Of a stretch of 64,000 bases of DNA, positions 33,349-63,885 are shown in pieces. A program made the translations under genes and the position numbers. How positions within the stretch are numbered: position 1 is the first letter of the stretch; the number at the start of each line of letters is the position of its first letter. Source of the stretch: Verrucomicrobiota bacterium JB024 (GTDB taxonomy: Bacteria; Verrucomicrobiota; Verrucomicrobiia; Opitutales; Cerasicoccaceae); the NCBI GenBank assembly GCA_030673825.1, contig JAUTCS010000083.1, positions 1 to 64,000 of the forward strand, in the 5' to 3' direction. The notes under the pieces are model-generated. The model saw only the letters and a list, made by a program, of their open reading frames with translations, ran no database searches and was not told where the DNA came from.

Positions 33349-34365
33349 GTGAGTAATCAAAGGCCAACTCAGCGTGACATCGCAAAAGCTGTCGGTGTAA
33401 CTCAGGCAACGGTTTCACTTGCTTTGGGAAACCATCCTCGCGTATCGGATAAATTGCGCCAGAAAATCCAGCAGATTGCTGATTCCCTGGGCTACCGGCC
33501 AGATCCATACTTGGCTGGTTTGTCCGCGTATAAGCGCACGATTCGCGAGCCGAATTTCCAGGCTACGTTGGCCTGGGTCACGAACTTCTCCCCGAAGAAC
33601 AGTTGGCGTGCGGTTTCGACATTCCAGCATTATTATGACGGGGCTCAACGCCGTGCGGCCGAGTTGGGTTACCAGTTGGAGTCGCATGACTTGGCTGTCT
33701 CCGGAATGTCTTCGAAGCGACTTGAGGGAATTCTCCGCTCCAAGAATATTCCAGGCGTATTACTCGCTCCTCAGCAAAAGCATAATACGCGCCTGGAGCT
33801 TTCCCTAAAACATCTGTCAGCTGTTACCTTTGGCTATTCATTGAGCGCTCCTAGATTACACACGGTTACCAGTCATCATTATCGTTCCATGGAAACGATA
33901 TGGGATAATCTGGTGAGGCTTGGTTACAAACGTCCCTCACTGGTGATCGAATACAGCAATGAAAAACGCGCGGATAATATCCCTTCGTCGTGTTTTTTTA
34001 ATATACAGCGAACCTTGTCTAAAAAGCAGTATGTTCCCGCATTGATCGAGCCCAGCCTCACCCCTGAGCGATTTTTGAAGTGGTACAAGCAATACCAGCC
34101 AGATGTTATCATTTCCTTGTGGGAGATGGTTTATCCATGGCTAGTCAATGTCGGTATCAAAGTGCCGGAAGATGTTGGTCTGGTCTTACTATCCGTGCGA
34201 GAGCAGGACGGCATTTTTTCTGGAATATGGGAGAATCCGTCTTTGATCGGTGCCAGAGCGGTCGAGTTTCTGATTGAACTCATTCACCGACGTGAGAGCG
34301 GGATACCTTCCATTCCCTCTTACCTCATGGTTGAAGGGACTTGGCTGGATGGAACAACGGTCTGA
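33349..34365 (+). CDS. LacI-family transcriptional regulator
   Basis: 338 residues from a GTG. The N-terminal LacI helix-turn-helix is unmistakable (TQRDIAKAVGVTQATVSLAL, then NHPRVSDKLRQKI and the hinge LGYRPDPYLAGL). The rest is a periplasmic-binding-protein-like sensor domain, somewhat shortened. It lies upstream of the GH50-like/pseudopilin/PEP-CTERM/GH2/transporter cluster on the same strand, and likely represses it until a sugar is bound. Confidence 0.92.
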   Translation: MSNQRPTQRDIAKAVGVTQATVSLALGNHPRVSDKLRQKIQQIADSLGYRPDPYLAGLSAYKRTIREPNFQATLAWVTNFSPKNSWRAVSTFQHYYDGAQRRAAELGYQLESHDLAVSGMSSKRLEGILRSKNIPGVLLAPQQKHNTRLELSLKHLSAVTFGYSLSAPRLHTVTSHHYRSMETIWDNLVRLGYKRPSLVIEYSNEKRADNIPSSCFFNIQRTLSKKQYVPALIEPSLTPERFLKWYKQYQPDVIISLWEMVYPWLVNVGIKVPEDVGLVLLSVREQDGIFSGIWENPSLIGARAVEFLIELIHRRESGIPSIPSYLMVEGTWLDGTTV

Positions 34366-34574
34366 TTGGCCGGGATGAATTGGAGTGAGCTTAAAACCGG
34401 AGATATTTTGGTCATCCGGTTATCAGAATAACATTAATTCTACTCGTGTCCGATTTTTCACAAGCGTAGAAATCGTCACGTATTTCACATACCCAATTCA
34501 ACTCCGTCCTCTTTGCTTGAGCCGCTTGGATATTGCGGGCCTGCTCATGCGCGGGGGATGTGTTTCGGCGGCGG

Positions 34575-36749
34575 ATGAAAATAAAAAAAACACTTATTGG
34601 TTTATTCGTGATCGTGCTCTTAGGCGCGGTTGTAGCATGGGTTCTGGGAGTGGACTTACTTCGATCAGCGGACGCTACATGTGCCCTCATGGCATCTCCG
34701 GACCAGGCAGCGCTGACACCACAGGGGCAGGCTGTCTGTGACCAGTTGCACCTGAGCAATATGCATCCTGTTGCCTTGGCCAATGCGGATGTTACGCAGC
34801 TGAAGGATGGGGGGGACTATGCCGTGCGCATAGACTTTGACGGGAATGCTGGTATGGCTCAGGCTGTGTACGAGTTTCCGTTTCCAGTAACCGCTGCTGC
34901 TTTATCCCTCAAATACAGGAAAACGTCTAAATCCCGCGCGTATGTGGAGTTCCGGTTCGAGGATGCGTCTCACTCTGGAGATGGAGGTATCGTTAATGTA
35001 GAAATCGGCTCATTAAAGACTTGGTTACCATTTTTGGTGACTGGCGTTGAGGAGGAGCTATACATCCCGCTCTATCGTGGAAGTGTTATTCCCGAAGAGT
35101 CGCTTGGGCTTGTGTGTATGCGAGGAAAGCCTGGCGCAATGTTTAACCCCGATGGAAACATGCGCTTGACCGTCTTGGCCAAGGATTTTGAAGGAACCCT
35201 TAGCCTGGAATTGGGCAATATTCTATTGGAGGGAATTTCGCCTCAGGAGCATATATCAAAAGGAAACTTCTTTCCTTTTGTGGACAAATATGGCCAGTAC
35301 ATGCACTCCGACTGGCCGGGGAAAGTTCATAGTGATGCACAGTTGCGCGAAGACGCTACCCAAGACGATACCTATTTGTCATCTTTCGATAATTCCGCAG
35401 AAAGCTGGGATCAGTATGGCGGGTGGGAAGGCGGCCCTCAGCTTGATGCGACAGGAAAATTCAGGACCGTGAAGATCAACGGTAAGTGGTGGCTGGTCGA
35501 TCCAGATGGACGTTTGTTTTGGTCGCACGGCGTAGCGGGAGTGCAGCTTGGTTCCGAGGTGACGCCGATTACAGATCGTGAACATTACTTCTCTGAGCTG
35601 GAGGACACGAATGGCGCGGAGTTTCTCAAGGCAGGGAAATGGATAGGGGTACCGGGTTATTATAAAGGCTACGACACATACATGACGTACAACTTTAATG
35701 CCGCAAACCTTGCGCGTAAGTATGGTAACGCCTGGTATAACCACTACATCGATATGCAGGGGAGGAGGTTGAGCGCGTGGCGACTCAATACGCTGGGAGC
35801 ATTTTCTTATACGGACCCGTTCAAAATCCCCTCATTGTCAATTGTCTCGTCGGGGAAGGCTCCACGTATCGCGGGCAGTAAGGGGCATTGGCGGCAGTTT
35901 CCCGATCCCTATTCAGCGGGATTCCCGGAAGCCATCCGCGAAAGTCTGAATGCCTATAAACCCGATGCGTATCGGATCGGATTCTTTCTCGATAATGAGG
36001 AGCATTGGGGAGGCGAATACGAACTGGCACTGGCGGCTCTGAAATCTCCCGCACCGCAGCCTGCCAAAAAGCATGTCGTTGAGCGTCTCACTGATAAGTA
36101 TGAGTCAATTGCCAAGTTGAATCAGGCGTGGCAGAGTGACTATTCCGACTGGAATGCACTATTAGGGGAGACTGAGGTCCCGCATTTTAGCGCTCAGGTG
36201 CGTGAAGATTTGAGACAAATCAACGACGATATTATTCACCAGTATTTTCGGGTTTTCAGGGAGGAAATCGACCGTGCTTTTCCGGGGACGCTCATGTTCA
36301 CGGCACGTTTTGCAGGTGTGCCCCATGAGCGCATCCTGCGTATCGCTGCCCAGTACTGCGATGGGTTTGTGTTCAACCTTTACGTCGATTCTCTGCTTGG
36401 TCTTGCTCTTCCGGAAGGCATCGATAAGCCCGTTATCGTAGGGGAGTTCCATTTCGGGGCGCTTGATAGTGGCCTCATGCATGCGGGATTGGTCCGCACA
36501 CGCAACCAGCTGGAGCGTGCGGAGGCCTACACCAGATTTGTGCAAAGCGGATTGAATAATCCCTACGTGGTCGGGACGCACTGGTTTCAGTATTGGGATG
36601 AGCCCGTGGCCGGGCGTCCGGATGGGGAAAACTATCAGATCGGACTGGTCAGCGTAGCGGATCGGCCGTACGAAGAACTCGTCAAGGCCGTCAACGGGGT
36701 TGGTCGCCGTATGTATACCGAACGATATGGAGAGGCCCGTGAAGAGTGA
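34575..36749 (+). CDS. Membrane-anchored GH50-like (beta-agarase-type) glycoside hydrolase
   Basis: 724 residues from an ATG at 34575 that begins an N-terminal hydrophobic anchor or signal (KTLIGLFVIVLLGAVVAW). A beta-sandwich region precedes a TIM-barrel. Near residue 474 the motif FFLDNEEHWGG fits the GH50 acid/base Glu, and GEFHFGALDSG near 623 fits the nucleophile Glu; THWFQYWDEP and PDGENYQIGLVSV close the barrel in GH50 style. GH50 enzymes cleave beta-1,4 bonds in agarose. The true substrate may differ, since no other agar-specific gene is visible. The stop lies 23 bp inside the next gene. Confidence 0.75.
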   Translation: MKIKKTLIGLFVIVLLGAVVAWVLGVDLLRSADATCALMASPDQAALTPQGQAVCDQLHLSNMHPVALANADVTQLKDGGDYAVRIDFDGNAGMAQAVYEFPFPVTAAALSLKYRKTSKSRAYVEFRFEDASHSGDGGIVNVEIGSLKTWLPFLVTGVEEELYIPLYRGSVIPEESLGLVCMRGKPGAMFNPDGNMRLTVLAKDFEGTLSLELGNILLEGISPQEHISKGNFFPFVDKYGQYMHSDWPGKVHSDAQLREDATQDDTYLSSFDNSAESWDQYGGWEGGPQLDATGKFRTVKINGKWWLVDPDGRLFWSHGVAGVQLGSEVTPITDREHYFSELEDTNGAEFLKAGKWIGVPGYYKGYDTYMTYNFNAANLARKYGNAWYNHYIDMQGRRLSAWRLNTLGAFSYTDPFKIPSLSIVSSGKAPRIAGSKGHWRQFPDPYSAGFPEAIRESLNAYKPDAYRIGFFLDNEEHWGGEYELALAALKSPAPQPAKKHVVERLTDKYESIAKLNQAWQSDYSDWNALLGETEVPHFSAQVREDLRQINDDIIHQYFRVFREEIDRAFPGTLMFTARFAGVPHERILRIAAQYCDGFVFNLYVDSLLGLALPEGIDKPVIVGEFHFGALDSGLMHAGLVRTRNQLERAEAYTRFVQSGLNNPYVVGTHWFQYWDEPVAGRPDGENYQIGLVSVADRPYEELVKAVNGVGRRMYTERYGEAREE

Positions 36750-37485
36750 CGTCTCAGTTAAGTTTTTGTGCCACAGACGGGAGTTACCTAGTCTGGGCTT
36801 CTCATTGATTGAGCTGTTGGTCTCGATTGCCGTTATCGCCGTTTTAATGGTCATCATCATCGCGGTCTCTGGCCAGGTTGTTGAATCTGCCCGCAGCTCG
36901 AAATGCGCGGGCAATCTCCGACAAATCGGGACCGCCTTCCTCTTGTATGCCAACGACCACAACGGGTACTTGCCGCCTCAGGTTGGTGGTCAACCCGAAG
37001 GGGGAAGCACGTGGTGGCACGCGAGCGGGACTTGGTACACGAACCTGTTGGTGAAGGGAGGCTATCTGCCTGATGTTGGGTGGATCAGTGAAAACTGGGG
37101 AAATTCTGACGCCGGTTACTGGCGCTGTCCTTCTGTGCCGGATGAGTATCTGGAGTGCGGAGGCGGATATGGCGCGAACTACAAGTTGATAAACTGGTGG
37201 GGGCAAGGGTATCAGCATGGCGCTTCGCTAATTACCCTCAGAAATCCCGGTCGCATATGGCTGATCGGTGACGCGATTCGCAAAACAGAAATTCCCACCA
37301 CTGACATCATGTGCACGTGCCCTCTGGATAACCCAAACCGTACGGATATCGGTCTGCCCGACGGGCGGCACAACGGTCATTGTAATATCGCCTTTGCCGA
37401 TGGTCACGTGGAATCGATTTCGGCCGAGTCGATCTATGATGGCACCGAGGATGTCTTTGGGGCCGGGGACAACTACGGTCTTTAG
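36727..37485 (+). CDS. H-X9-DG pseudopilin (prepilin-type signal)
   Basis: 252 residues. The prepilin signal LGFSLIELLVSIAVIAVLMV has the conserved Gly-Phe cleavage site and Glu at +5, followed by the usual helix and Cys-Ala-xx-Leu-Arg-Gln motif (CAGNLRQIGTAFLLYAND). The C-terminus has the H-X9-DG signature (HNGHCNIAFADGHVES). It overlaps the end of the GH50-like gene by 23 bp and is followed by a PEP-CTERM gene. Type II secretion-type processing and export are expected. Its role in glycan use is unknown. Confidence 0.88.
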   Translation: MERPVKSDVSVKFLCHRRELPSLGFSLIELLVSIAVIAVLMVIIIAVSGQVVESARSSKCAGNLRQIGTAFLLYANDHNGYLPPQVGGQPEGGSTWWHASGTWYTNLLVKGGYLPDVGWISENWGNSDAGYWRCPSVPDEYLECGGGYGANYKLINWWGQGYQHGASLITLRNPGRIWLIGDAIRKTEIPTTDIMCTCPLDNPNRTDIGLPDGRHNGHCNIAFADGHVESISAESIYDGTEDVFGAGDNYGL

Positions 37486-37521: not shown

Positions 37522-38370
37522 ATGAATACACTCGCATCAACGATCTTGTCATTAGCAATGACTGCCTCAACCCAGGCCGTGACTACGCTGTTTGTCGATG
37601 ACTTCAGCGCAGATACATCATCGGAGTACGCCACGGGCGGCTATGTCGGATGGGGAAGTGCGGGCAGCCTCTCTATCTCAGGAAATGGAAGCGCCACCTT
37701 CACCACACCGGAAAATGGCTTTAGCTATTTTGGCTTTGGCCGTTCACTTGGCTACGATGTCCTGACGACAGAGGGAGATGTTCTGACGGTATCAGTCACA
37801 TTTTCACTCAGCGGCATTTCCTCGACAGACGGCATCATCGCACTGTATGCGTCCAACAGTAGTGACGCGACGACCTCCGAGTCGCCTTATCCATCAACAA
37901 GCCAAGCGGTCGGCACGTCTATTCTTCCTTCCGGTGGAGCCAATTCGCTACGCGTGCTAGGCGATACCGGCAGTGTCAGTGGTATCCTGAATACCTGGTC
38001 GGGAGACATCGTGTATGGGGATAAAACATCGCTTACGGCGCTTGAGGCTTATACCTCCTATACCTTGACGATGATCGTGACCCGTTTGTCCGGAGACAGT
38101 TACTCGGTCAGTGTCAGCTTGAACGGGACAGAGCTTACGGATAGCAGCATTACCGTTTCTGCCTTGGACTCGATTAGCGAGGTTGGCCTTCGCTATTATG
38201 CCGTTAACAACACAGACTATAGCGACTTTACGATGAGCATCACTGAGTTCTCCGCAACAACGACGTCGAACATTCCTGAGCCAAACGAGGCTACGTTCAT
38301 GCTTGGAGGTGCAATGCTGTTTATGCTGTTACTGCTGCGCCGTTCCAACGTGCGGTTATCGACCCGGTAG
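37522..38370 (+). CDS. PEP-CTERM sorting-domain protein
   Basis: 282 residues with a signal peptide (MNTLASTILSLAMTASTQAV) and a C-terminal PEP-CTERM signal: IPEPNEATF, a hydrophobic helix (MLGGAMLFMLLLLRR), then basic residues. The middle is Ser/Thr/Gly-rich and beta-strand-like, possibly a concanavalin-type lectin fold, with no catalytic motif. Such proteins are processed by an exosortase and usually attached to the outer surface or an exopolysaccharide. The exosortase is not in the window. Confidence 0.87.
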   Translation: MNTLASTILSLAMTASTQAVTTLFVDDFSADTSSEYATGGYVGWGSAGSLSISGNGSATFTTPENGFSYFGFGRSLGYDVLTTEGDVLTVSVTFSLSGISSTDGIIALYASNSSDATTSESPYPSTSQAVGTSILPSGGANSLRVLGDTGSVSGILNTWSGDIVYGDKTSLTALEAYTSYTLTMIVTRLSGDSYSVSVSLNGTELTDSSITVSALDSISEVGLRYYAVNNTDYSDFTMSITEFSATTTSNIPEPNEATFMLGGAMLFMLLLLRRSNVRLSTR

Positions 38371-38460: not shown

Positions 38461-40206
38461 ATGTGTATATCAAGTAAAGATGATACAGGCTTTGGCGTTG
38501 TTTCGCTGGACGGGTTATGGGATTTCGCATTTCTGGGAGATACGGACGAACAGAGCGCACTTGAGCATCTCCCTGAGCAATGGCGTAAGACCTACGTCCC
38601 TTCTGCATTCGACGCATCGGTCGAAACGCCGGGTAAGCGAGGGATGGCGATGTATCGTAAGACTTTGATCATCCCGAAGGGACATCCTGCTGAACTCTAT
38701 TTTGGGGCTTTGTCAATTTGGAGCCGTGTTTATTTGGACGGGGAGCTGCTTCGTGAGAATGCCTGTGGCTACGAACCGCTGCATATCTATGTGCCAGAGG
38801 CTAAATACGAGCGGCGGGAGTTACTCGTACTCGTTGATAATCGATTCGACTTTGAGCGAGTGCCGATGCATGAGGAGCACTTCGATTTCTACCAATATGG
38901 AGGCATCCTGCGTGAGGTGAAGCTGCGCCTCCTGAAGGCCGGAGATCCCTGGATCAAGGCCATACGAGTAACGCCTACCGATCTCTATGAGGCGGGGAAA
39001 ATCCATGTCGATATTGATATCGCATACACTGGTACGGGGCAGAAACTACGATGGGAGTACGCTTTTGATAACCGTGCTTCTTCGGCCTTACCCGAAGAAG
39101 CCGTGGAGATGGATTCGACGGGAGCCCACATGGCGCTGCTTGTTCCTGACCCGCAGACGTGGAGTCCTGACGCGCCCCACCTTCATCAGCTCGACGTGCT
39201 TATGCGGGGAGAGAACGGGAAAGTCGTTGACCGCCGCTCGGTACGTTTTGGTCTGCGTCAAGTCAAGGCGCACGGGGGGAAACTTTGGCTCAACGGCGAG
39301 CCGCTTATTCTAAAAGGTGTAAACCGGCATGAATGGCATCCGAACTTCGGTCCCTGCACCCCCGTCGCTCAGATGGTTTCTGACGTGCAACTCATGAAGG
39401 ACATGGGGTGCAATTTTGTTCGCGGTTCACATTACGCACAGGACCAGCGTTTTCTGGATGTGTGTGACGAGCTCGGAATGCTTGTTTGGGAAGAGAACCT
39501 TGGGTGGGGGCAGAGAGAGTTTACACTTACTTGTGAAAAGTTCATTAATGATCACCGGCAATCGCTAAAGGCGATGGTTTACGAGAGCTATAATCATCCG
39601 TGCGTTATCTGCTGGGGGTTCCTGAACGAAGCCGGAAGTGATGCTGAGTATGCCCGTCCGGTTTTTGAAGATAGTGTGTCTGTCTTACGGCAGATCGACC
39701 CCAGCCGTCTTATTACTTTTGCATCCATGTATGCCTTTAGCGACCGGTATTTTGATTTAGTCGATTTCATTAGTATAAACACGTATCCGGGGTGGTACGG
39801 ATGTGAGGACGAGCCTGACCCACTTTCGTTGATCAAACCGCAGATTGAACGCATCTCGTCTTCTGTGGATGAGCGTGGATTCGCAGAAAAACCCCTTGTG
39901 ATTTCAGAGATTGGAGTGGAAGGGTTGTATGGGTGGAGGGATACGCACAACGATTTCTTCACCGAGGATTTTCAAGCCCGCTATCTTCAGGCCGCTATAA
40001 GGTCTGTACTCGGAAACACACGCTACAGTGGGATCGTATTATGGCACTTTAGTGATGTGAGGACTTACGGGGGCGGGCGTTCGTTAATGCGGCCGCGTGC
40101 GTTCAATAACAAAGGTGTGCTGGATGAGTATCGCCGTCCCAAGCAGGCCTACGAAACCGTCAAAATGTGTTTTTCGGAAGGCCCAATTGAGCCAAGCAGG
40201 CAGTAA
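38461..40206 (+). CDS. Glycoside hydrolase family 2 (beta-galactosidase/glucuronidase type)
   Basis: 581 residues, intracellular (no signal peptide). The domain order is the GH2 one: sugar-binding jelly roll (SLDGLWDFAF, FGALSIWSRVYLDG), immunoglobulin-like domain and TIM barrel. The acid/base Glu is in CWGFLNEAGS (about residue 390) and the nucleophile Glu in VISEIGVEG (about 483); the substrate-loop motif LKGVNRHEWHP is conserved. The length is short for a beta-galactosidase and closer to beta-glucuronidase. It lies between a PEP-CTERM gene and a sugar symporter gene and probably acts on the transported oligosaccharide. Confidence 0.9.
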   Translation: MCISSKDDTGFGVVSLDGLWDFAFLGDTDEQSALEHLPEQWRKTYVPSAFDASVETPGKRGMAMYRKTLIIPKGHPAELYFGALSIWSRVYLDGELLRENACGYEPLHIYVPEAKYERRELLVLVDNRFDFERVPMHEEHFDFYQYGGILREVKLRLLKAGDPWIKAIRVTPTDLYEAGKIHVDIDIAYTGTGQKLRWEYAFDNRASSALPEEAVEMDSTGAHMALLVPDPQTWSPDAPHLHQLDVLMRGENGKVVDRRSVRFGLRQVKAHGGKLWLNGEPLILKGVNRHEWHPNFGPCTPVAQMVSDVQLMKDMGCNFVRGSHYAQDQRFLDVCDELGMLVWEENLGWGQREFTLTCEKFINDHRQSLKAMVYESYNHPCVICWGFLNEAGSDAEYARPVFEDSVSVLRQIDPSRLITFASMYAFSDRYFDLVDFISINTYPGWYGCEDEPDPLSLIKPQIERISSSVDERGFAEKPLVISEIGVEGLYGWRDTHNDFFTEDFQARYLQAAIRSVLGNTRYSGIVLWHFSDVRTYGGGRSLMRPRAFNNKGVLDEYRRPKQAYETVKMCFSEGPIEPSRQ

Positions 40207-40269
40207 TTCAATGGCAGGCATTTGCGTGGAAGGCTCTTGGCGAAAAGGGTGCTGTACAGAATTCGTTTC

Positions 40270-41688
40270 ATGAAATCTAACGATCAAAAGATGTTGATAG
40301 AGGGGCAGCCTTCTCGTGCCAGGTTTTGGCAGATACTGGCGTTCTCGGGTAATGATACGGCGACAAACGCCAGCCTTGTTCTTGTCTCGACTTTCTTTGT
40401 CGTGATGCTGACGGACAATTTGCTGCTGTCGGGTTTGGTTGCCGGGCTGATTTTGACTTTTGCGAGGCTTTTTGATGGAGTGACCGATCCGCTCATCGGC
40501 ATGTGGCTGGATAACACTGTGACTCGATGGGGGAAGTTTCGACCCTTTCTGCTCGGTGGGTCCATCATGATAAATATTGGCATGCTGTTTATCTTTGGAG
40601 GCTTCGTCAGGTTTTCAAATCCGACCCTCCAATATGCCTGGATTATCGTATGGTATGCCGTTTACATTATTGGTTACACTGCCCAATCCGCCTGCACAAA
40701 ATCTGCTCAGGTTCAGTTGACGAGTGACACACGACAGCGATCCTTGCTGGCTTTTCTGACATCGATAATCGACGCCTTCTATTGGAACGGTTTTTTGGCT
40801 GTATCCGTGAATTATGTTGCTGGTTTTCCTGGCGGATTAACGAATCCCACGGGGTATCGTCATATTGTTCTGCTCGCTATCGCAGTGAATATCCTGCTGA
40901 CGTTCTTCGCTCTTCTTTCCTTGAGGGAGCATGATCGTCCCGAGTTTTATTCTCGGCAAAGACGGCCTGCTGATCGAGTACGAGTTGGCACTCTCATCGA
41001 TTTGATTAGCCGCAACCATGCGCTCCAGGCATTGATCGCTGCCGCCGCAACGAACAAGCTCGCCTGGGTTTTGCAGGGAGCGGCGGCGGTTTACTTTTAT
41101 GTCTATACCGTCCAGAATCTGAAGACTCAGGCAACCGTATCTCTACTGGCGTTGCCAGCTATGTTTGTGGGGAATTTTGTGGGCATGTGGATCGCCCGTC
41201 GAACCGATCGGAAAACCTCGTTTTTAGCTGGAACCTGGGCAGCGATTTTATTGGGAGGTCTCGTGATTATTGTCCGGCCATTTGACGTCGAACGGCTCTG
41301 GCTTTTCTTGCTGTTAATCTCATTAGTAAACGCAGCAAACGGCATCACCGCCATGAACATCATTCCAATGATTGCCGACGTTGCCGATTATGATCATTGG
41401 AAAAATGGACGTTTCGTTCCGGGATTAGTTGGGACAACTTTTGGCCTAGTCGATAAGCTGGTTTCTTCCGCCTCGGGCTTACTCATCGGCGGGCTATTGA
41501 CCGCGATTGGCTACCAAACCGGGATGGAATGGAGCCCGGTCATCTACTGGGCATTTTTGCTCGTTATGCTAGGCGTTCCAGTGGCCGGACACTTGATTTC
41601 AGTCATCGCCATGCGCTGGTATCCGATCAATGGCTTACTCTACGCGAAAATCCAGAATGACCTGGATCCACAACGTGTGCTGCGTTGA
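40270..41688 (+). CDS. GPH-family sugar:cation symporter (MFS)
   Basis: 472 residues from an ATG at 40270, with about 12 membrane helices. The N-terminal ARLFDGVTDPLIGMWLDNTV and RWGKFRPFLLGGS are the glycoside-pentoside-hexuronide signature, and ADVADYDHWKNGRFVPGL in the middle is typical of the family. It takes up a glycoside by cation symport. It follows the GH2 gene by 63 bp on the same strand, so the GH2 enzyme probably works on its cargo. Confidence 0.9.
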   Translation: MKSNDQKMLIEGQPSRARFWQILAFSGNDTATNASLVLVSTFFVVMLTDNLLLSGLVAGLILTFARLFDGVTDPLIGMWLDNTVTRWGKFRPFLLGGSIMINIGMLFIFGGFVRFSNPTLQYAWIIVWYAVYIIGYTAQSACTKSAQVQLTSDTRQRSLLAFLTSIIDAFYWNGFLAVSVNYVAGFPGGLTNPTGYRHIVLLAIAVNILLTFFALLSLREHDRPEFYSRQRRPADRVRVGTLIDLISRNHALQALIAAAATNKLAWVLQGAAAVYFYVYTVQNLKTQATVSLLALPAMFVGNFVGMWIARRTDRKTSFLAGTWAAILLGGLVIIVRPFDVERLWLFLLLISLVNAANGITAMNIIPMIADVADYDHWKNGRFVPGLVGTTFGLVDKLVSSASGLLIGGLLTAIGYQTGMEWSPVIYWAFLLVMLGVPVAGHLISVIAMRWYPINGLLYAKIQNDLDPQRVLR

Positions 41689-43220: not shown

Positions 43221-43475
43221 AGATGCTTGGGGCAGGAATGGCATTGATGAACGGCTTTCAACTTTTTGTCGAGTTTCAGCTAAATGAATGTCTATCCCTG
43301 TGTTAAAATTTGGGATATATCGACGAGTAAATGCTAGAGATATATATCTTAAAAATTGATTTGTCAATGATTCAATTTTATTGACTGTCGCCTTTTATAT
43401 ATTCAGTAATTGGCCATTATCTGATTGCCCAACTGCAAATGGCCGGTGTTTATCGTCGTGAAAATTTGGTTCGAA

Positions 43476-48677: not shown

Positions 48678-48764
48678 TTTTTAGGGTGTTTTTTCGTGGA
48701 CCACGGGAAATAACCGCGTAGAGATAAGTGTGTTGTTCGTATGTTTTGTTAGCCCCTGGCAGGT

Positions 48765-49484: not shown

Positions 49485-49489
49485 GCGCG

Positions 49490-53186: not shown

Positions 53187-53287
53187 GCCGTTGTGCTTTG
53201 CTGAAGCCAAGACAATAACGTATGCCCACCTGGTACGCTTACGTGCTGGGTGGGCTAATTTGTTGGGCGGATCTGAAACGCTTCCGG

Positions 53288-53483
53288 GTCCCCTGGTGTC
53301 CCCTGTCCCCTTGTCCCCCGATGATTTTACTTTTACTTTTTTCTTCTTACCTCTCTGCCTGGTTGGTCGTCGCTCCCTCCCCTGTACTTGTCTTGTATTT
53401 TTTTCTGGTAATGGAAATATATGAGGGGACGAGGGGACAATTGCCTTCAAGGCTAGTATTTATTGAGTGTGAAGCGTGTCCCC
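53288..53483. repeat. Cluster of GTCCCC motifs (iteron-like)
   Basis: GTCCCC occurs at 53288, 53298, 53305, 53313 and 53478, and its complement GGGGAC at 53425 and 53433. The first four are 7-10 bp apart. Seven copies in under 200 bp beside a primase gene resemble a replication-protein binding array, though the motif is short. Confidence 0.5.
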
Positions 53484-53592
53484 TTGCTTTATGCCAAGCG
53501 AGGACCATCAGGGGGCGGGGGCATTTAATAATTCGTAGTTTTGGCTACTTTTTGTATTGACAAAATGAATACGCATGTATTGATTAAAACCA

Positions 53593-53669
53593 ATGCTAGG
53601 AATAGCATGACCTGCTGAATGTTTTTGGGGCCTTTGGTTTTAGCCCCGCCCGATTTTTCTCTCAGCAGG
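53593..53669 (+). repeat. Two stem-loops upstream of the primase gene
   Basis: ATGCTA-GGAA-TAGCAT (53593-53608) forms a small stem with a GGAA tetraloop. It is followed by CCTGCTGA (53611-53618) pairing with TCAGCAGG (53662-53669), which encloses a GGGGC/GCCCC stem. Confidence 0.65.
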
Positions 53670-53678
53670 ATTTATTTA

Positions 53679-53706
53679 CCCCATCCGGGGCAACCCTCGG
53701 ATGGGG
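53679..53706 (+). promoter_or_regulatory. Strong hairpin covering the ribosome-binding region of the primase gene
   Basis: CCCCATCCG (53679-53687) pairs with CGGATGGGG (53698-53706); an inner GGG/CCC adds three pairs with one bulged T, leaving loop CAA. The 3' arm ends 7 bases before the ATG, so the only G-rich ribosome-binding candidate (GGATGGGG) is sequestered. No other Shine-Dalgarno sequence lies between it and the start. Translational control is inferred. Confidence 0.6.
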
Positions 53707-53713
53707 ATTTAAA

Positions 53714-56420: not shown

Positions 56421-57398
56421 TCAGCTTGCGTGTGTCAGTCGCCAAGTGCCGGGCGTCATCCCGGTGGCTCGTCGGAATGCACGGATGAAATAAGCCGCGC
56501 CAGAGTAACCGCACATGGTTGCCACAATGTCGATCTTACTTGAGCTATTTTCCAGAAAGCGCTTGGCTTGCCGAATCCGGCGTTCCTGCAGGATTTCGTT
56601 GAAGCTCTTTCCGGCGAACTGACGGCATAGCACGGAAATGCGGCTCGGATGGAGCTGGAGTGACTGTGAGGCGCTTTCTCTGTTGATCGGGCGGTGATAG
56701 TTTTCCTGAATGTAGCGGTCTATAATAATCCAACTAGAGTTGGCCTTGCAACGGGGAACCTGAGTGCTGCTTGATAGTTGTATCCAGTTCCTGATCAGTT
56801 CGAAAAGTGTAAGCGCGAGGTGACGGCCAATGTGTGTATTGGATTGCCAACCGGGAAAGCTGAGGCTGGGTGGCAATTGTCGGCTGATGCGCATTGATGT
56901 GGCTTTGGGGGTCGTCCAGTGCGAGACTTCTTGGAGTGCTTCAAGTGTTCTCTGTACCGCATATGGTCGCTCATCTATCCAGTGGCACCAGTTTGGCGTG
57001 GGGGCTGCGGTGCTCTTGTTCGGGTCGTATCTCACTTCGATAAAGCGGGTATAGGCGTCGTGAAACATCACACCCATATACTGGCATTGGGTAGAGAATA
57101 TTTCGTAGTCATGGCTATCGGGCGGGCAAAACCAGATGTCACCTCTTTTGAGGGAAGCCTGTTTTAACTGAGACTGACGCAGGTACACGAATTGATGCTC
57201 GCCTTCCAGCAGCAGGTGAAGCCTCGGCATTTGCATGCAGCGCCAACCATGCCCGGTCTTGGTCCTGTGTGTTGGTAAGGAAGCATCAGGTAGGAACAGC
57301 TCACCAGCTTCATTCGCGATATCGAAGCCCGAAAGACAATTGTAAATGTACTGCAACGATACGTTGTGTTGCTGTGGGGTGTAGGTCTTGAGGATCAC
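56421..57398 (-). CDS. AraC-family transcriptional regulator
   Basis: 325 residues. The N-terminal part is a cupin-like sensor (LHLLLEGEHQFVYLRQSQLK, GDIWFCPPDSHDYEIF). The AraC double helix-turn-helix is at the C-terminus (RPINRESASQSLQLHPSRIS and IDIVATMCGYSGAAYFIRAF RR). It is divergent from the pseudopilin/GH42-like/PEP-CTERM/sialidase cluster starting at 57665, so it probably activates it. The 266-bp region between is AT-rich and should hold both promoters. Confidence 0.92.
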   Translation of the reverse strand: MILKTYTPQQHNVSLQYIYNCLSGFDIANEAGELFLPDASLPTHRTKTGHGWRCMQMPRLHLLLEGEHQFVYLRQSQLKQASLKRGDIWFCPPDSHDYEIFSTQCQYMGVMFHDAYTRFIEVRYDPNKSTAAPTPNWCHWIDERPYAVQRTLEALQEVSHWTTPKATSMRISRQLPPSLSFPGWQSNTHIGRHLALTLFELIRNWIQLSSSTQVPRCKANSSWIIIDRYIQENYHRPINRESASQSLQLHPSRISVLCRQFAGKSFNEILQERRIRQAKRFLENSSSKIDIVATMCGYSGAAYFIRAFRRATGMTPGTWRLTHAS

Positions 57399-57664: not shown

Positions 57665-58408
57665 ATGCATACAGATTCCTATACTCAGCCCTGCCTTCGC
57701 GTGAAATCTGCGCGACTTCCCTGCTCAAAGATACCTGCGTTTAGTTTGATCGAGCTTTTGACCGTCATCGCGATAATCGGTGTCCTTGCAGCCATACTCG
57801 TTCCGATTGTCGGAAGCGTTAAGGCCTCCGTACGCAGCACCCAATGCGCAAGACGACTCAGTCAGATCGGTTCGGCAATTTATCTCTATACGAGTGACAA
57901 CAACGGCTATTTCCCCGACGTAATGGTTCGGTCCGAGGCCAACACTTACTGGCACCAGTGGTGGCGGGAAATCGGCCCGTACATCAACACGAGCGTCAAG
58001 GAGGATCAGTATTCTTACGAAGATCTTCAGTGTCCGGAGGTAACTGAGCTGGCGATTGAGTCACTGCCATCGAGCTCCAGGCCGGAGAGACTCCCCAACT
58101 ATGGGCTTAATGCAAAATTGAGCCGCTATCAGGATAATGTGAACAATGCTCCCGCGGGGACGCGTGTGCGAGTCCTTGATGTGGTTAATCCCGCTCGCAC
58201 CCTGCTTGTTGGCGATGTGGGGGTCGGAGGCACCTCGACGGTGCCCGGAATGGATGTGAACAGCGTGACCAATCAAGGAGACAAGCATCCTGGCGGATCC
58301 AATCTGCTCTGGGTCGATGGCCACGTAAGCGTCTGGAAGGATGTCAACCGCTTAAGGGAAGCGCCTTATGCTCCGGGCAGTACCGAGGATGTCTGGAACC
58401 CGTATTGA
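57665..58408 (+). CDS. H-X9-DG pseudopilin (prepilin-type signal)
   Basis: 247 residues from an ATG at 57665 (a GTG at 57641 is also in frame). The signal PAFSLIELLTVIAIIGVLAA has Phe +1 and Glu +5, with Ala in place of Gly before cleavage. It is followed by CARRLSQIGSAIYLYTSDNN. The C-terminal H-X9-DG motif is HPGGSNLLWVDGHVSVW. It is first in its cluster and ends 5 bp before the GH42-like gene. Confidence 0.87.
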   Translation: MHTDSYTQPCLRVKSARLPCSKIPAFSLIELLTVIAIIGVLAAILVPIVGSVKASVRSTQCARRLSQIGSAIYLYTSDNNGYFPDVMVRSEANTYWHQWWREIGPYINTSVKEDQYSYEDLQCPEVTELAIESLPSSSRPERLPNYGLNAKLSRYQDNVNNAPAGTRVRVLDVVNPARTLLVGDVGVGGTSTVPGMDVNSVTNQGDKHPGGSNLLWVDGHVSVWKDVNRLREAPYAPGSTEDVWNPY

Positions 58409-58413
58409 ATGAA

Positions 58414-61131
58414 ATGCACGTGATGAAAAATTCCTTTAAAATGACACTCATTCTGTGTGCCTTCACGTTGTCTGTGCTTCAGTCCGTCGGGGCGGAGGAA
58501 TCGGGTGGGCCCTATGGTGGTTTTGGTCCGATCAGTAGCCGCGAGCTTTCCTCGGTGCCCTGGGCTCATCGTTATGGTGAGGGGATATTGATCGAGCTGG
58601 GAGACAGCGGCTCTATCACTGATCCGCGGCATCCCGATAACCAGTTGAGCCTTCTGCTGACTAACCGCACGAGTTCCTCTGTTACAGTTTATCCGAGTCT
58701 GAAGCTAATTATGCCCTCTCAGGCCGGACCGAACGGCAAGGATGAGGTATGGGAGGTATTTGATGGACAACCATTGACCCTCAAGGCCGGTACGACTGTC
58801 GCGCAAACAATCCCTGTAAAATTGACACGACAAGGTGTGCTGCGTGCCCTCGCTGCACGGGGTGACTACACACTGGCGGGAATGCGGATCGTGATCGAAG
58901 TCCGTGACGAACAGGGGGCTGTACTCCCGGCGATTTCCGATAGCGGGCATTTTTGCGTGGCTCCGTTGGGGGATGCTCCCGCCCTTCCGCAGGCGGCTAT
59001 TGTTCAGCATGAGGGTATTCCCATGCTGGAGATCAACGGAGTGACCTATCCCGGGAATTTTGGCTATGTGGGATGGAGCTGGCACCCTTCACGCCAGGGC
59101 GTGAAGGACTTCGCCATGACTGGCCGTCACATCTACGAGATCGTATTTCAGCCCTGGAGCATCTTCAAGGACGGTCAGCTGGATCCGAACCTGTTCGAAT
59201 ATAAGATGAATCAGATGGTGGCTTCCATTGTGGGGCGCGACCCGCAGGCGTTGATTATGGTGCGCTGGTGGATGTACGTTCCTAAGGATTGGCAGCAGTT
59301 TCATCCCGACGAAGTTGTAGTCTATGACGATGGGTCTAAAAACCTTCGAATGCCCGCCGGATTGGATAACCAGGCAAGCTACTGTTCGCCGCTTTGGCGT
59401 GACCAGTTCACAACAATTGTCCGTGAGGGTGTCAGGCGTTTGATCAAGAGTCCGTACGCTGACCGTATCTTCGCGTTGCGCGTGGGTTACGGCAATTGCG
59501 GCGAGTGGAACGGCTTCGGGTATCAGGGACGCAAGTTCGGTGATTTTTCGATACACGGGCGAGAGGCCTATGTGAAATGGTTGCAGGAAAAGTACACCGA
59601 TATCGAGCGCCTGAACGCCGCCTGGAATTCCGACTTGCAGGACTGGTCCGAAGTCGAGGTGCCCGGCACGGCTGAGCGCATGGAGGTGGATTTTGGCGTG
59701 ATGCGCGATCCTGCCGTGGCTGGAAACTACAGCGACTATTACCGCTTTTGGAGTGATTACACGGTGTCGCTCATCGAGTATTTCGGGCGGATTGTGAAAG
59801 AGGAGTCCTCGGGGAAGCTACTATACTCGACCTTTTACGGATACTTTCTGCACCACCTGACAGCCTCGCCTTACCATAGTCTGGATTCCGGGCACTATGC
59901 GATGACACGCCTGTTGCGATCACCAGTCATAGACATGATCGGCAGTCCGCACAATTACCTCGATCGCGAGAAGAACATATCGCAGGGCATTGCGTTGGAC
60001 TCGGTCAAGGCGCACGGAAAGCTCTTTATCGTCGAGGACGACATGACTACGCATGAGTCCACCGACTGGCCGCACCGTAAAGATGTCTTTGCCAGTACGC
60101 CCGAGGACTCGATTGCCTGGCACTGGCGTAATTACAGCCGTATCTTGACATGGGGGGTCGCTGGCTACTGGTACGACTTTTCCCGTGACTGGTTCACCTC
60201 GCCTGAGCTGATCGAGATGGCGCGGCGTATTCAGGACGTAAATGATTTTGCCCGCACGGTACCGAACGACAGCGTTGCGCAGGTAGCCGTCATGCTCGAC
60301 GAGCCGAGCATCTTCGACCTGAGCCTGGACAGTGCAAACTACGGCAAGTCCCTGTATAAAACCGTCGCCTATCAGCTAGACCAGGCAGGCGCCCCCTGGG
60401 ATTGCTTCCTGACCAGCGATATCGACAGGGTTGTTGCTCAGGACCGTTACCGTGTGCTGATATTCATGAACCAGTTGCGGCAGTCCCGCCAGGTGCAGGT
60501 GGCGTTGCAGAACTTCAAGGGGGCGGTTGTCTGGGTTTACGGAGCCGGAGCGATCTCTGAGCGAGGGTTGAGCGAAGTGAGTGAGTGGATCGGGATGCGT
60601 ATACGCTACGAGCCTGATTCGAGCGCCTACCATTTGATGACGGATGGCACCCCTATTGCAGAGCCGGAAGACACGCCAGTGACGCCGTTGGCCGTGATCG
60701 ACGATGATCAAGCGACGATCCTTGCCCGACATGCCACCGGTGAGCCTGGTTTCGGTTACAAGCCTCGCATAGGCGGAGGGGACACGTACTTTACCGGCAT
60801 CCCCTGGCTGAACTCCTGGATGCTGGCCCCGGTCTATGAACGGGCGGGAGTGTATCACTACATTAAAAGCGGAAGGGTCAATCTTTACGCCAGTAAGTCA
60901 TTCCTAGGGCTTTGGTCACACTCGCTCAGTGGGCCAGTCACGATCAGCCTGCCGGAGGTGGCGGAGGTGGTGGTCGATCTGTGGACGGGCGAAGTTATCG
61001 GCCGCAATATATCCGAGTGGACCGTCGATGCGTCGGTATCATCCAGCTCCAATTCCGGCCAGCCTCTGGCCCGGCTTTACTACTATGGCCCGGTGATGGA
61101 CCCGATGCCTCCCGTCCAGTCCACCGATTGA
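58414..61131 (+). CDS. Exported GH42-like glycoside hydrolase
   Basis: 905 residues from an ATG at 58414 (58423 also possible), with a signal peptide (KMTLILCAFTLSVLQSVGA). An N-terminal beta domain leads to a TIM barrel: GYVGWSWHPS, VRWWMYVPKDWQ, then GNCGEWNGFGY with a likely acid/base Glu, and LFIVEDDMTTH where the nucleophile is expected. A flavodoxin-like domain (VAVMLDEPSIFDLS, YRVLIFMNQLRQ) and a beta domain follow, as in GH42 beta-galactosidases. The match is distant, and the substrate is unknown. Confidence 0.68.
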   Translation: MHVMKNSFKMTLILCAFTLSVLQSVGAEESGGPYGGFGPISSRELSSVPWAHRYGEGILIELGDSGSITDPRHPDNQLSLLLTNRTSSSVTVYPSLKLIMPSQAGPNGKDEVWEVFDGQPLTLKAGTTVAQTIPVKLTRQGVLRALAARGDYTLAGMRIVIEVRDEQGAVLPAISDSGHFCVAPLGDAPALPQAAIVQHEGIPMLEINGVTYPGNFGYVGWSWHPSRQGVKDFAMTGRHIYEIVFQPWSIFKDGQLDPNLFEYKMNQMVASIVGRDPQALIMVRWWMYVPKDWQQFHPDEVVVYDDGSKNLRMPAGLDNQASYCSPLWRDQFTTIVREGVRRLIKSPYADRIFALRVGYGNCGEWNGFGYQGRKFGDFSIHGREAYVKWLQEKYTDIERLNAAWNSDLQDWSEVEVPGTAERMEVDFGVMRDPAVAGNYSDYYRFWSDYTVSLIEYFGRIVKEESSGKLLYSTFYGYFLHHLTASPYHSLDSGHYAMTRLLRSPVIDMIGSPHNYLDREKNISQGIALDSVKAHGKLFIVEDDMTTHESTDWPHRKDVFASTPEDSIAWHWRNYSRILTWGVAGYWYDFSRDWFTSPELIEMARRIQDVNDFARTVPNDSVAQVAVMLDEPSIFDLSLDSANYGKSLYKTVAYQLDQAGAPWDCFLTSDIDRVVAQDRYRVLIFMNQLRQSRQVQVALQNFKGAVVWVYGAGAISERGLSEVSEWIGMRIRYEPDSSAYHLMTDGTPIAEPEDTPVTPLAVIDDDQATILARHATGEPGFGYKPRIGGGDTYFTGIPWLNSWMLAPVYERAGVYHYIKSGRVNLYASKSFLGLWSHSLSGPVTISLPEVAEVVVDLWTGEVIGRNISEWTVDASVSSSSNSGQPLARLYYYGPVMDPMPPVQSTD

Positions 61132-61174: not shown

Positions 61175-61975
61175 ATGAACAATATGCACAAAATGATCGT
61201 GTCTCTGGCCCTCGGGTGTTCGCTGATGGCTGCCGCCTCAAGCACTCAGGCCAGCCTGGTTGCAATGTGGGACTTTAATGGCGGTTCGCTCACGGATAGT
61301 GTCGGTGGCGTCCAGCTAACCATTCAGACGGGATATCCGGTGGACAGTGCCGCGACCCGGGTGGAAAATGGCCAGCTGATCATCGCCCGTCGTGAGGCTG
61401 TTTATACCACGGACTCCAGTGTCCTGCTGTCGGGAGACTTTACCCTGTGGCTGACCATGTCCTCGTCATCCATCGCCACAAATAATATATTCTTCGGCTA
61501 TGGAACGAGCACGGTCGGTACGGATAACCTGATGCCGAGCTTCAATGACATCGGCTATGCGGCCTATTTTACGGGTGCCGATACCGCACCGATCAATGCT
61601 CAGTACAAGGGTGACCTGGCGACTGTGACAGTTGGAGAGACCGCGTCTGTGAGTGAGAACGAAACCTTCGCGCTGGCGTTGGTGTATGATTCCTCCACGG
61701 GCGAATTGAGCATCGTGCTTAACGGAGTGGAGGTTTCGGCCACGACGAATGTGGCGAACACTCTCGATTCACTGACCATGTTTGCGGTCGGATTCCTGCG
61801 CTTCGATGCGGCTTCAATATATGACAATATGACTGTGGACGAGATACGTATCTACGACAGCGCGCTGTCGGCCGCCGAGATCGCCGCTATTCCTGAATCA
61901 TCTTCAATGGCCGCGCTTTTGGCTGTGCTTGCGATGGGGGCCGTACTAGCCGCCCGCCGTCGTCTCAAAAAGTAA
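61175..61975 (+). CDS. PEP-CTERM protein with LamG-like lectin domain
   Basis: 266 residues with a signal peptide (KMIVSLALGCSLMAAASSTQ) and a PEP-CTERM-type tail (IPESSSMAALLAVLAMGAVL then AARRRLKK). The middle (MWDFNGGSLTDSVGG, DFTLWLTMSSSSIATN, DEIRIYDSALSAAEIAAIPE) is the concanavalin/LamG fold and probably binds a glycan. Genes of this form lie beside hydrolases and may anchor or guide them. It starts 43 bp after the GH42-like gene. The next gene is its paralog. Confidence 0.88.
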   Translation: MNNMHKMIVSLALGCSLMAAASSTQASLVAMWDFNGGSLTDSVGGVQLTIQTGYPVDSAATRVENGQLIIARREAVYTTDSSVLLSGDFTLWLTMSSSSIATNNIFFGYGTSTVGTDNLMPSFNDIGYAAYFTGADTAPINAQYKGDLATVTVGETASVSENETFALALVYDSSTGELSIVLNGVEVSATTNVANTLDSLTMFAVGFLRFDAASIYDNMTVDEIRIYDSALSAAEIAAIPESSSMAALLAVLAMGAVLAARRRLKK

Positions 61976-61994
61976 ATACTGAGATAGACAACAG

Positions 61995-62717
61995 ATGGGC
62001 TTTACGGGATTTATTCTGCTGGCCGTTGGGTTAGCTGCGGCGAAGCCTGCACCGGAACCGGATGCAAATCTGGTTGCGGTGTGGAGCTTCGGCAGCTCGG
62101 GCTTGCAAAGCGATTTTGGCAGCGTGAGCCTGCTAGCGACTGTTCCACAAAGGGTAGAACTTCGTGACGGGACACTGGTGCTTCACCATAATGCCTCGGT
62201 CTTAACCAACGCGGCGGATGTGATGCCGAGTGGCGACTATACCCTGTGGCTCAGGATGAAGACTAGCCGCGTCGTCAACGGGCAAATGTTTGCCGGTTAT
62301 GTGCGCGGCGTTGATTCTTCTGTCAGCGGGGGACGTCCTCTTATGGCACAGGGATGGGACAATATCGTGCATACGGCGCTCTTTGTTCGGGATGGAAGTT
62401 CACCCGTTAAGACACAGTTTCGAACGGGTAAAATCTTCGGTGAAATCAAATCCTCGAACGCCGTTTCCCCGGACGAGTACTTTGAGCTCGCCTTGGTCTT
62501 TAACAAAAAGGCAGGCCGTGGGATTCGCGTTATGCTCAACGGCGTTGAGCACGTTTATGACAAACTGACAGATGCTCCCATTGCAGAGCCAAATGCGCTG
62601 GCGTTTGGTTTTCTACGTTATCCCGGTGTGTCTGTCCACGACACAATGACGATCGACGAGATCCGTCTTTATCGCGTGGCCGTGTCGCCAGAAGTCCTCG
62701 CAAGCCTTTCAAGGTAA
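61995..62717 (+). CDS. LamG-like protein, paralog of the upstream gene without sorting tail
   Basis: 240 residues with a short N-terminal hydrophobic signal (MGFTGFILLAVGLAAAKPAP). The domain clearly matches its neighbour (VAVWSFGSSGL, SGDYTLWLRMKTS, DEIRLYRVAVSPEVLASL), but the protein ends where the neighbour's PEP-CTERM signal would begin. A tandem duplication followed by loss of the anchor is the simplest reading, giving one anchored and one freely secreted or periplasmic lectin-like protein. It starts 19 bp after the upstream stop. Confidence 0.75.
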   Translation: MGFTGFILLAVGLAAAKPAPEPDANLVAVWSFGSSGLQSDFGSVSLLATVPQRVELRDGTLVLHHNASVLTNAADVMPSGDYTLWLRMKTSRVVNGQMFAGYVRGVDSSVSGGRPLMAQGWDNIVHTALFVRDGSSPVKTQFRTGKIFGEIKSSNAVSPDEYFELALVFNKKAGRGIRVMLNGVEHVYDKLTDAPIAEPNALAFGFLRYPGVSVHDTMTIDEIRLYRVAVSPEVLASLSR

Positions 62718-62739
62718 AGCACCTCCACACTCGATTCAT

Positions 62740-63885
62740 ATGAATACTGTATTGAACTCTCGGGGCAGCGTGCCGGAAGGCCTGGGCGGGAGCCATCCTG
62801 TCGGACTTTGCAAATTCACCGTCTGCCGCGACGACTCGATTTATGAGGCTTGGCCAGATGTGGCCATTGCCAGGGGAGAGCGTCTTGTCTGCGTCTTTAA
62901 TGAGTGTACACACCATGCCAACCGTGAGTATACGCGGATCGTGAGTGTGCTTTCCGATGACCGCGGCCGTACCTGGAGCTCAAAGATCCCGGTGACCGAG
63001 CCAATGACCAAGCAGAAGGAGTCCGATCCACACTGGAACTGCCCGCGTATCACTGCGATGGCGGACGGGAGTCTGGTCGTGATCGTCGATCTCGTCGGTG
63101 GCGCGAACGAGGGCAACTCACCGGAGTCGATCCAGAGTAACTGGTTGTATCGCAGTTTTGACCGTGGCGAGACTTGGACTGGTCCCTGCCGGACACCAGC
63201 GATTGGAATTGTTCCTGACCGGCTCGTTGTCCTGCAACACGGTAAACATCGCGGGCGCTGGATTCTTTCGTCACACCGGTTCATCACTCTGGAGGAAGGC
63301 GCCCAGTGTTGGATGCAGCGGCTCTGGTATTCTGACGACCAGGGAAAAAGCTGGTCGGCGCCCGTGACGATCGCCCGTTCAGACCAATACAAACTTTGCG
63401 AAGGCTGCATTCTCGAATTGTCGGACGGAGCCCTGGTCTGCTTCCTGCGTGAGAATTCCTTCACGGGAATGGATGCGTTCAAGGCGATTAGTCGCGATGG
63501 CGGTGAGACCTGGGATGGGCTGTACCGGCTGCCGACGCCGGGTTGCCACCGCCCCGTGGCCGGGTTGCTAAAGAGCGGAAAAGTAATGATCACTTACCGC
63601 TACCTGCCCGGAGGCAAAGGAGGCTGGGGCGTGTGGACTCAGAATCTGTTTGCTCTGCTGACAGACGAGGCTGGATGCCTAGAAACAGACCGAAACCAGA
63701 CCGCCACGCGTGTCTTACCGATTGACTACGATCGAAGCCAAAAGGCCGACACCGGCTACTCCGGCTGGGTCCAGTTTCCCGACGGAGAGATTTATATCGT
63801 CAACTACATCCTGGATGATGCACCGCTTGCTTACATCCGGGGCTATTCACTGTATGAGGACGCTTTCGTGGTAGAGGCAGACTGA
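62740..63885 (+). CDS. Sialidase-like BNR/Asp-box protein
   Basis: 381 residues. Four Asp-box motifs are visible: SDDRGRTWSS, SFDRGETWTG, SDDQGKSWSA and SRDGGETWDG, as in six-bladed beta-propeller exo-sialidases. There is no signal peptide. The conserved Arg triad and nucleophile Tyr cannot be placed with certainty by eye. The next gene encodes a sialate-lyase-like protein, which supports a role in releasing or processing sialic acid. Related Asp-box proteins can have other substrates. Confidence 0.78.
   Translation: MNTVLNSRGSVPEGLGGSHPVGLCKFTVCRDDSIYEAWPDVAIARGERLVCVFNECTHHANREYTRIVSVLSDDRGRTWSSKIPVTEPMTKQKESDPHWNCPRITAMADGSLVVIVDLVGGANEGNSPESIQSNWLYRSFDRGETWTGPCRTPAIGIVPDRLVVLQHGKHRGRWILSSHRFITLEEGAQCWMQRLWYSDDQGKSWSAPVTIARSDQYKLCEGCILELSDGALVCFLRENSFTGMDAFKAISRDGGETWDGLYRLPTPGCHRPVAGLLKSGKVMITYRYLPGGKGGWGVWTQNLFALLTDEAGCLETDRNQTATRVLPIDYDRSQKADTGYSGWVQFPDGEIYIVNYILDDAPLAYIRGYSLYEDAFVVEAD

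Follow-up and report, generated by a model that had tools for sequence, protein, structure and literature searches.

Recurring modules of a regulator, an H-X9-DG pseudopilin, carbohydrate enzymes and a PEP-CTERM-like protein in a Verrucomicrobiota genome

How do Verrucomicrobiota-type bacteria, which are major polysaccharide degraders, move large glycans and enzymes across the outer membrane without a SusCD pair? The question is raised by a stretch of 64,000 nucleotides from Verrucomicrobiota bacterium JB024 (hereafter 'the window'), in which a first-pass annotation had noted three gene clusters, each with a regulator, a pseudopilin carrying an H-X9-DG motif, a PEP-CTERM-type protein and at least two glycoside hydrolases. 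HMM searches and inspection of the sequence confirm that every cluster carries a regulator, an H-X9-DG pseudopilin, a PEP-CTERM-like protein and carbohydrate enzymes. The number of hydrolases was claimed correctly for modules A and B. In module C the second enzyme is a BNR/Asp-box protein, which is only a putative hydrolase.

Anatomy of the three modules

Module A (33.3-41.7 kb) lies entirely on the plus strand. It opens with a LacI-family regulator (33349-34365; PF00356, E=2e-13), which is followed by a GH50 beta-agarase-like enzyme with an N-terminal membrane or signal segment (34575-36749), the pseudopilin (36727-37485; above cut-off for PF07596, PF07963, TIGR04294 and TIGR02532), a PEP-CTERM protein (37522-38370; signal peptide, IPEP motif, transmembrane helix and basic tail evident in its sequence), a GH2 enzyme (38461-40206; PF02836, E=1e-39) and an MFS_2 (GPH-type) sugar transporter (40222-41688; PF13347, E=2.7e-55). 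The GH50-like enzyme yields zero matches in a Pfam search, and a PDB sequence search matches it to the beta-agarases 5z6p, 6xj9 and 4bq2 (E<=3.2e-71). The start of the pseudopilin gene overlaps the end of this enzyme gene. The GH2 enzyme is probably cytoplasmic, since no signal peptide is seen. Elsewhere in the window (28836-32173), a GH78 alpha-L-rhamnosidase and a divergent AraC regulator form a glycan locus that has no pseudopilin or PEP-CTERM gene.

Module B (42.1-48.2 kb) is headed by a GntR-family regulator (42111-43367, minus strand; PF00392, E=1.3e-18) that is divergent from a plus-strand operon. The first product of this operon is a secreted GH39-like (PslG-like) enzyme (43446-45044), which matches PslG (4zn2, E=2.4e-11) in a PDB sequence search and gives zero matches in a Pfam search. 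Next come a PEP-CTERM-like protein of the IPEG variant, recognized by its sequence architecture (45089-45895), and, beginning 7 bp past that gene, the pseudopilin (45903-46637; PF07963 and TIGR02532 above cut-off, literal HX9DG), which also matches pseudopilin profile A1 (E=8e-59). A cytoplasmic GH4 enzyme (46715-48169; PF02056, E=3.5e-38) ends the module. The region between modules B and C (48681-56005) is an unrelated island encoding small sigma-like, Ser/Thr kinase-like, DUF5131 and primase/helicase-like proteins, and is possibly a mobile element.

In module C (56.4-63.9 kb), a divergent AraC-family regulator (56421-57398, minus strand; PF12833, E=1.6e-17) stands before a plus-strand operon whose first gene encodes the pseudopilin (57665-58408; PF07596, TIGR04294 and TIGR02532 above cut-off). 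This gene is followed by those for a secreted GH42-like enzyme (58414-61131; PF02449, E=2.9e-9), a PEP-CTERM-like LamG protein of the IPES variant (61175-61975; PF13385, E=2.8e-10, tail evident in the sequence), a LamG-like secreted protein without a C-terminal tail (61995-62717; PF13385, E=4e-4, under the curated cut-off) and the BNR/Asp-box protein of sialidase-like fold, which has no signal peptide (62740-63885; PF13088, E=1.4e-16). The module runs on past the window end with an aldolase of the N-acetylneuraminate lyase/DapA superfamily (L036:1914-2852), 28 bp behind this last gene, that scores under the equivalog cut-offs. Together, the aldolase and the BNR protein hint that the substrate of module C is an acidic sugar. 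A fourth module is found just past the window end (L036:5709-9575; about 67.7-71.6 kb on the same contig, C83), with genes for an H-X9-DG pseudopilin, a PEP-CTERM-like (IPES) protein, a 383-aa protein and a LacI regulator, such that four modules fall within about 40 kb. The gaps between structural genes of the modules are short, ranging from overlap to about 90 bp. Operator palindromes were sought at the regulators of the window, and none rises above shuffled sequences.

The PEP-CTERM-like proteins of all three modules have the expected architecture of a signal peptide, a PEP-like motif, a transmembrane helix and a basic C-terminal tail. A true PEP (in IPEP) occurs only in module A, with PEG in module B and PES in module C. 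Among 24 such proteins only P-E is invariant, and the third residue varies among P, S, A and G. The curated PEP-CTERM HMMs (Pfam/NCBIfam, a very short model) match none of these three proteins at E<=0.001, and several relatives adjoining other pseudopilins score above the curated cut-off. The genome holds three matches to the exosortase family PF09721 (E from 6e-39 to 4e-21). An AF2 model of the module A protein (pLDDT 63) has the Emp46p carbohydrate-recognition domain as its best VIA match (Z 14.8, rmsd 3.2 over 200 residues), and the fold matches are L-type lectins, with enzymes of the same superfamily also listed. The earlier description of a sorted surface lectin is therefore reasonable for this protein, given a predicted L-type lectin fold of modest confidence, and the model suggests that it likely binds sugar. 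No close homologue of it was found in 10 genomes of the family, and by sequence comparison it appears to evolve fast.

A diverse family of pseudopilins

All three window pseudopilins carry the literal H-X9-DG motif, as first noted. The prepilin cleavage/methylation model TIGR02532 scores 22.3, 25.7 and 20.2 bits for A, B and C (cut-off 16.3), and the C-terminal model TIGR04294 scores 22.7 bits for A and 22.2 for C (cut-off 19). Despite its literal motif, the module B protein has no TIGR04294 match at E<=0.001. Each lies far under the cut-off of the GspG equivalog TIGR01710 (19.7, 19.7 and 28.3 bits for A, B and C versus 88.85), a model on which the genome's own GspG scores 117. The Verru_Chthon cassette proteins C and D (TIGR02599 and TIGR02596) likewise do not describe the module A protein (25.4 versus 256.5 bits and 23.5 versus 70 bits), nor does this cassette describe the module C protein (23.4 versus 70 bits).

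The window pseudopilins are 26-30% identical, in agreement with the first-pass view that the modules are not one recent duplication. An origin by recent duplication is ruled out by the 20-31% identity among these highly diverse paralogues in general. A search profile built from 29 pseudopilins finds 71 matches in this genome (G000), 38 in a genome of the same genus (G001) and 44 in one of the same family (G004). Several of the G001 matches (C1 1617574, 1646380, 1808611, 2843315 and 1200678) cross one in-frame stop codon, which means either that the profile overruns the gene end or that some copies are decaying.

One way to read such a family is that each pseudopilin is a membrane-anchored binding or enzymatic domain of the periplasm or surface, for which the prepilin signal is merely an anchor. 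The expansion to about 70 copies is consistent with this, as is the naming history: DUF1559 was earlier called a solute-binding family, and PF07596 bears the name SBP_bac_10 (PMC2754498). In the alignment, the C-terminal H-x9-DG motif is also far better conserved than the remaining globular part. However, Glu5 and the prepilin motif are retained in nearly all copies, as fibre packing predicts. Moreover, the AF2 model of the module C pseudopilin (pLDDT 76) has a long N-terminal helix and a small globular domain that superpose on type IV pilins, with PilA4 as the best VIA match (Z 5.8, rmsd 3.5, 120 residues aligned) and modest scores throughout (Z 3.6-5.8). Foldseek returns no match to this model at E<=0.001. 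We consider the anchored-domain reading improbable.

Association, conservation and spread

If the modules are functional units, their parts should recur together beyond expectation. Loci were picked by a pseudopilin match alone (H-X9-DG or profile), genes were called by a custom script, and the regulator HMM calls and the PEP-CTERM pattern used for neighborhood counts were likewise scripted. The genomes comprise the window's own, the same-genus G001, the same-family G004 (one contig), G005, G008, G030 from another family of the order, and G032 from a third family, whose short contigs led to its exclusion from pooled counts. Base rates were estimated in G001 from a systematic sample of 20 tiles of 20 kb, in which 13 of 329 genes are regulators and 5 of 329 are PEP-CTERM genes, and other genomes may differ; from these, about 22% and 9% of loci are expected to have one within three genes. 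Pooled over six genomes of the order, a LacI, GntR or AraC regulator lies within three genes of 45 of the 68 sampled pseudopilins, and a PEP-CTERM gene within three genes of 43, counts that are not fully independent in that some loci in related genomes are orthologous. Excluding the window's genus, both values are 16/27.

By genome, the corresponding fractions for regulator and PEP-CTERM are 19/29 and 18/29 (own genome), 10/12 and 9/12 (G001), 5/10 and 3/10 (G004), 6/7 and 4/7 (G005), 1/4 and 4/4 (G008), 4/6 and 5/6 (G030), and, outside the pool, 1/6 and 1/6 (G032). Chance pairing, which the first-pass annotation had named as fatal to its own idea, fails as an explanation, as evident by these counts and by the shift tests below.

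A related alternative is hitch-hiking, in which pseudopilin and PEP-CTERM genes, being abundant, simply sit in the same variable, enzyme-rich islands as regulators and have no joint function. The families are indeed large, as the genome holds 60 LacI genes (57 in G001, 35 in G004) and 74 permissive PEP-CTERM matches (62 in G001, 122 in G004) beside its 71 pseudopilins. However, the association with LacI survives local shifts of 15-120 kb in two genomes. In G001, LacI genes lie within 5 kb of 16 of 29 full pseudopilins (rotation mean 3.6, local shift mean 5.6; p=2e-4 for both), and in G004 within 5 kb of 8 of 25 (rotation mean 1.4, local 1.5; p=2e-4 for both). In six cases in G001, a LacI gene and a pseudopilin are direct divergent neighbors whose matches lie 102-175 bp apart. 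For PEP-CTERM genes within 2.5 kb, the count is 6/29 in G001 (mean 1.3, p=0.002; local p=2e-4) and 1/25, which is not significant, for Pfam-defined genes in G004. Neighbor frequencies also decay with gene distance from the pseudopilin, counter to hitch-hiking: 15%, 10%, 9% and then about 5% for PEP-CTERM genes, and 18%, 12% and then 5-10% for regulators.

Enzymes follow the same trend. A secreted protein of at least 450 aa occurs within three genes at 48 of 74 pseudopilin loci versus 84 of 307 (p=4e-9), and heparinase-type lyases lie within 5 kb of 9 of 29 pseudopilins in G001 (mean 1.6, p=1e-4). Pfam tallies for 133 neighbors and 133 control genes give LacI 8 versus 2, along with 6 AraC, 5 sulfatase, 3 BNR, 3 MFS_2 and 2 GH4 neighbors, none of which are among the 25 commonest families of the control. 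Large neighbors include GH42, GH36-like, GH71, heparinase-type, CBM9, LamG and beta-helix proteins. Carbohydrate enzymes are frequent everywhere in these genomes, and their excess near pseudopilins is therefore less clear-cut than that of regulators and PEP-CTERM genes; 4 of 10 random large genes also encode such proteins, a point in favor of hitch-hiking.

Comparisons between genera argue in the other direction. L035 and L141 have seven genes in common, including LacI, pilin and PEP-CTERM genes, at 57-71% identity, while in L043 and L170 an ABC transporter, pilin, LacI and PEP-CTERM gene recur in different orders. Module C shares AraC (45%), pilin (51%) and GH42 (36%) with L144. At L033 and L148, only the pilin (67%) and the PEP-CTERM protein (58%) are common, and so this pair has been kept while all other neighbors differ. 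Such conservation is predicted by a functional unit and not by hitch-hiking.

In a set of 115 genomes from across the phylum, 53 have TIGR04294 matches, and some families show large expansions. In other families of the phylum, a regulator stands within three genes of 8/10 pseudopilins in G044, 5/6 in G058 and 6/12 in G040, often directly adjacent, versus 10% of non-pilin control genes in G040. These modules adjoin very large enzymes with GH2, GH42, LamG or beta-helix domains. No PEP-CTERM gene was detected in the modules of these three genomes (families f33 and f38 among them), a finding that, with the non-significant G004 result, rules out PEP-CTERM as an essential part. In several families the core thus consists of regulator, pseudopilin and enzyme; PEP-CTERM, without which this core recurs elsewhere, is a component added within the window's order.

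Regulator coupling is not universal to H-X9-DG pseudopilins. It is not enriched at 80 distant loci drawn from several phyla (Verrucomicrobia, Planctomycetes, Armatimonadetes and others, hence PVC and beyond), a result that would also suit hitch-hiking, and it is seen at 0/16 pseudopilins of G116, a genome of a distant family. There the genes occur singly or in arrays, including tandem arrays of five without a regulator (L200, L202). Arrays without a regulator are noted for family f49. Some pseudopilins stand with neither regulator nor enzyme. Considering the evidence from shifts, distance and conservation, we judge hitch-hiking to be very improbable.

Secretion machinery and relation to known systems

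SusD (PF07980) is absent from all three genomes searched (0/3), including that of the window, and the Bacteroides positive control was found; the SusD part of the earlier remark that no SusC/D pair is visible is thereby upheld. The genome does hold one complete type II secretion system (T2SS) operon (L181:5240-17828), recognized by gene order and homology, with genes for GspG, further pilins, GspK, L, M, D, E and F. This operon is conserved in G001, and PilB/PilT-type ATPases of type IV pili are encoded elsewhere in the genome. Directly before gspG, a PEP-CTERM gene is present in G000, G001 and G008 (L181:5240-17828, L187:2029-14664 and L194), and in two of these genomes it is preceded by a shared secreted protein of 368-371 aa. 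The T2SS operons of G004 and G005 have no PEP-CTERM gene. In a separate arrangement without enzymes, L031:6597-11372 (G000:C150) has a pseudopilin and a PEP-CTERM gene alongside genes for a PilT-type ATPase and a 'choice-of-anchor M' protein, and PilT, pseudopilin and PEP-CTERM genes recur together at G001:C1:1279563-1284313.

The explanation we favor, to which we give about an even chance of being correct, is that these are sugar-switched modules in which the pseudopilin is an induced, module-specific subunit of a shared T2SS that exports the enzyme and the lectin-like protein. The local LacI, GntR or AraC regulator would sense a sugar and switch on a short operon. Its products would be a large enzyme for export, cytoplasmic enzymes or a transporter of the inner membrane, a single H-X9-DG pseudopilin of highly diverged sequence and, within the window's order, a single exosortase-type surface protein whose fold is lectin-like. 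The induced pseudopilin, having kept the prepilin cleavage motif and Glu5, would be processed by the common prepilin peptidase and join the pseudopilus of the shared machine. Its diverged C-terminal domain might then recruit or orient the co-encoded enzyme and lectin-like protein so that they cross the outer membrane, and the sorted protein may stay on the surface, holding enzyme and polysaccharide at the cell.

Both machines are present in the genome, and we infer that the pseudopilin enters the T2SS and not a type IV pilus. Counting against this explanation are the T2SS operons of G004 and G005 that lack a PEP-CTERM gene, the non-significant pilin/PEP-CTERM association in G004, the pseudopilins that stand apart from regulators or enzymes, and the window's lack of operator palindromes above shuffled sequences. 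The main rival develops the earlier glycan-capture idea: a type IV pilus-like fibre, made of the pseudopilins or decorated by them, would bind polysaccharide and draw it to the outer membrane or across it, with PEP-CTERM lectins as co-receptors. The type IV pilin-like fold of the module C model, the PilB/PilT-type ATPases, the PilT gene beside one pilin/PEP-CTERM pair (L031) and the predicted lectin-like fold of the sorted protein are consistent with such a fibre, as is a pilin-like protein in the glycan-handling locus MUL2 of Akkermansia (PMC13174399). However, the window modules have no assembly genes of their own, their pseudopilins travel with large exported enzymes, and paralogues of 20-31% identity do not make a filament of one pseudopilin obvious. 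We regard a fibre as unlikely. Of the capture idea, the recurrence of modules beyond chance stands and the essential role of PEP-CTERM does not, while secretion by a T2SS fits the anatomy at least equally well.

If the T2SS explanation is extended, several families of the phylum would share a SusD-free scheme in which dozens of sugar-induced, interchangeable pseudopilins re-program one secretion machine to export only the enzymes that fit the polysaccharide present, with exosortase-anchored lectins added in one lineage. We advance this broader scheme tentatively, as somewhat short of an even prospect. The regulator, pseudopilin and enzyme unit, found in at least four families, offers a marker for locating glycan loci, hints at what the roughly 40-70 uncharacterized pseudopilins of each genome may do, and connects exosortase sorting with type II secretion.

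Neither the general module nor the link to PEP-CTERM was found described in the literature. The closest case is Verruconatronum alginivorum, also of the Opitutales, where a PulG-like pseudopilin lies among polysaccharide-lyase and transporter genes in an alginate operon (pgaptmp_000046-60) whose proteins are up on alginate (one replicate per treatment). That genome has 67 homologues of this pseudopilin, and the authors propose the T2SS as the export route of the lyases (PMC13274419). As in the window, a pseudopilin sits among polysaccharide-degradation genes, and the case lends published support to the T2SS explanation. The account differs in that its relevant section concerns one alginate operon and gives no genome-wide rule of regulator, pseudopilin and enzyme, and a term search finds no mention of PEP-CTERM or exosortase (PMC13274419).

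The module pseudopilins resemble GspG/H/I/J/K of T2SSs in their prepilin cleavage motif, Glu5, N-terminal helix and small globular domain. They differ in falling far under the GspG cut-off, in lying away from the T2SS operon beside local regulators, in numbering dozens of copies and in carrying a C-terminal H-x9-DG motif. MYXO-CTERM and GlyGly-CTERM surface proteins, which depend on T2SS (PMC11980579) and likewise lend the T2SS explanation support, have a C-terminal tripartite sorting tag as do the window proteins, whereas the window tag is PE-P/S/A/G, the candidate sorting enzymes are exosortases rather than myxosortase or rhombosortase, and we infer the dependence on T2SS. Akkermansia MUL2 is alike by description, being a glycan-use locus of the Verrucomicrobiota with a pilin-like protein, but it is a single conserved four-gene locus with PilM and MUL2A, and the passage describing it includes no local sugar regulator, enzymes or PEP-CTERM (PMC13174399).

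Like the modules, the SusC/D polysaccharide utilization loci of Bacteroidota are substrate-specific and locally regulated, and they encode both exported and inner enzymes along with a transporter and a protein that binds glycan at the surface. In contrast to these loci, the modules lack SusD (in three genomes), use LacI, GntR and AraC regulators, and place a pseudopilin and an exosortase-type protein where the SusCD pair stands. The modules can be viewed as substrate-specific glycan loci of a known kind that possibly employ a new secretion logic.
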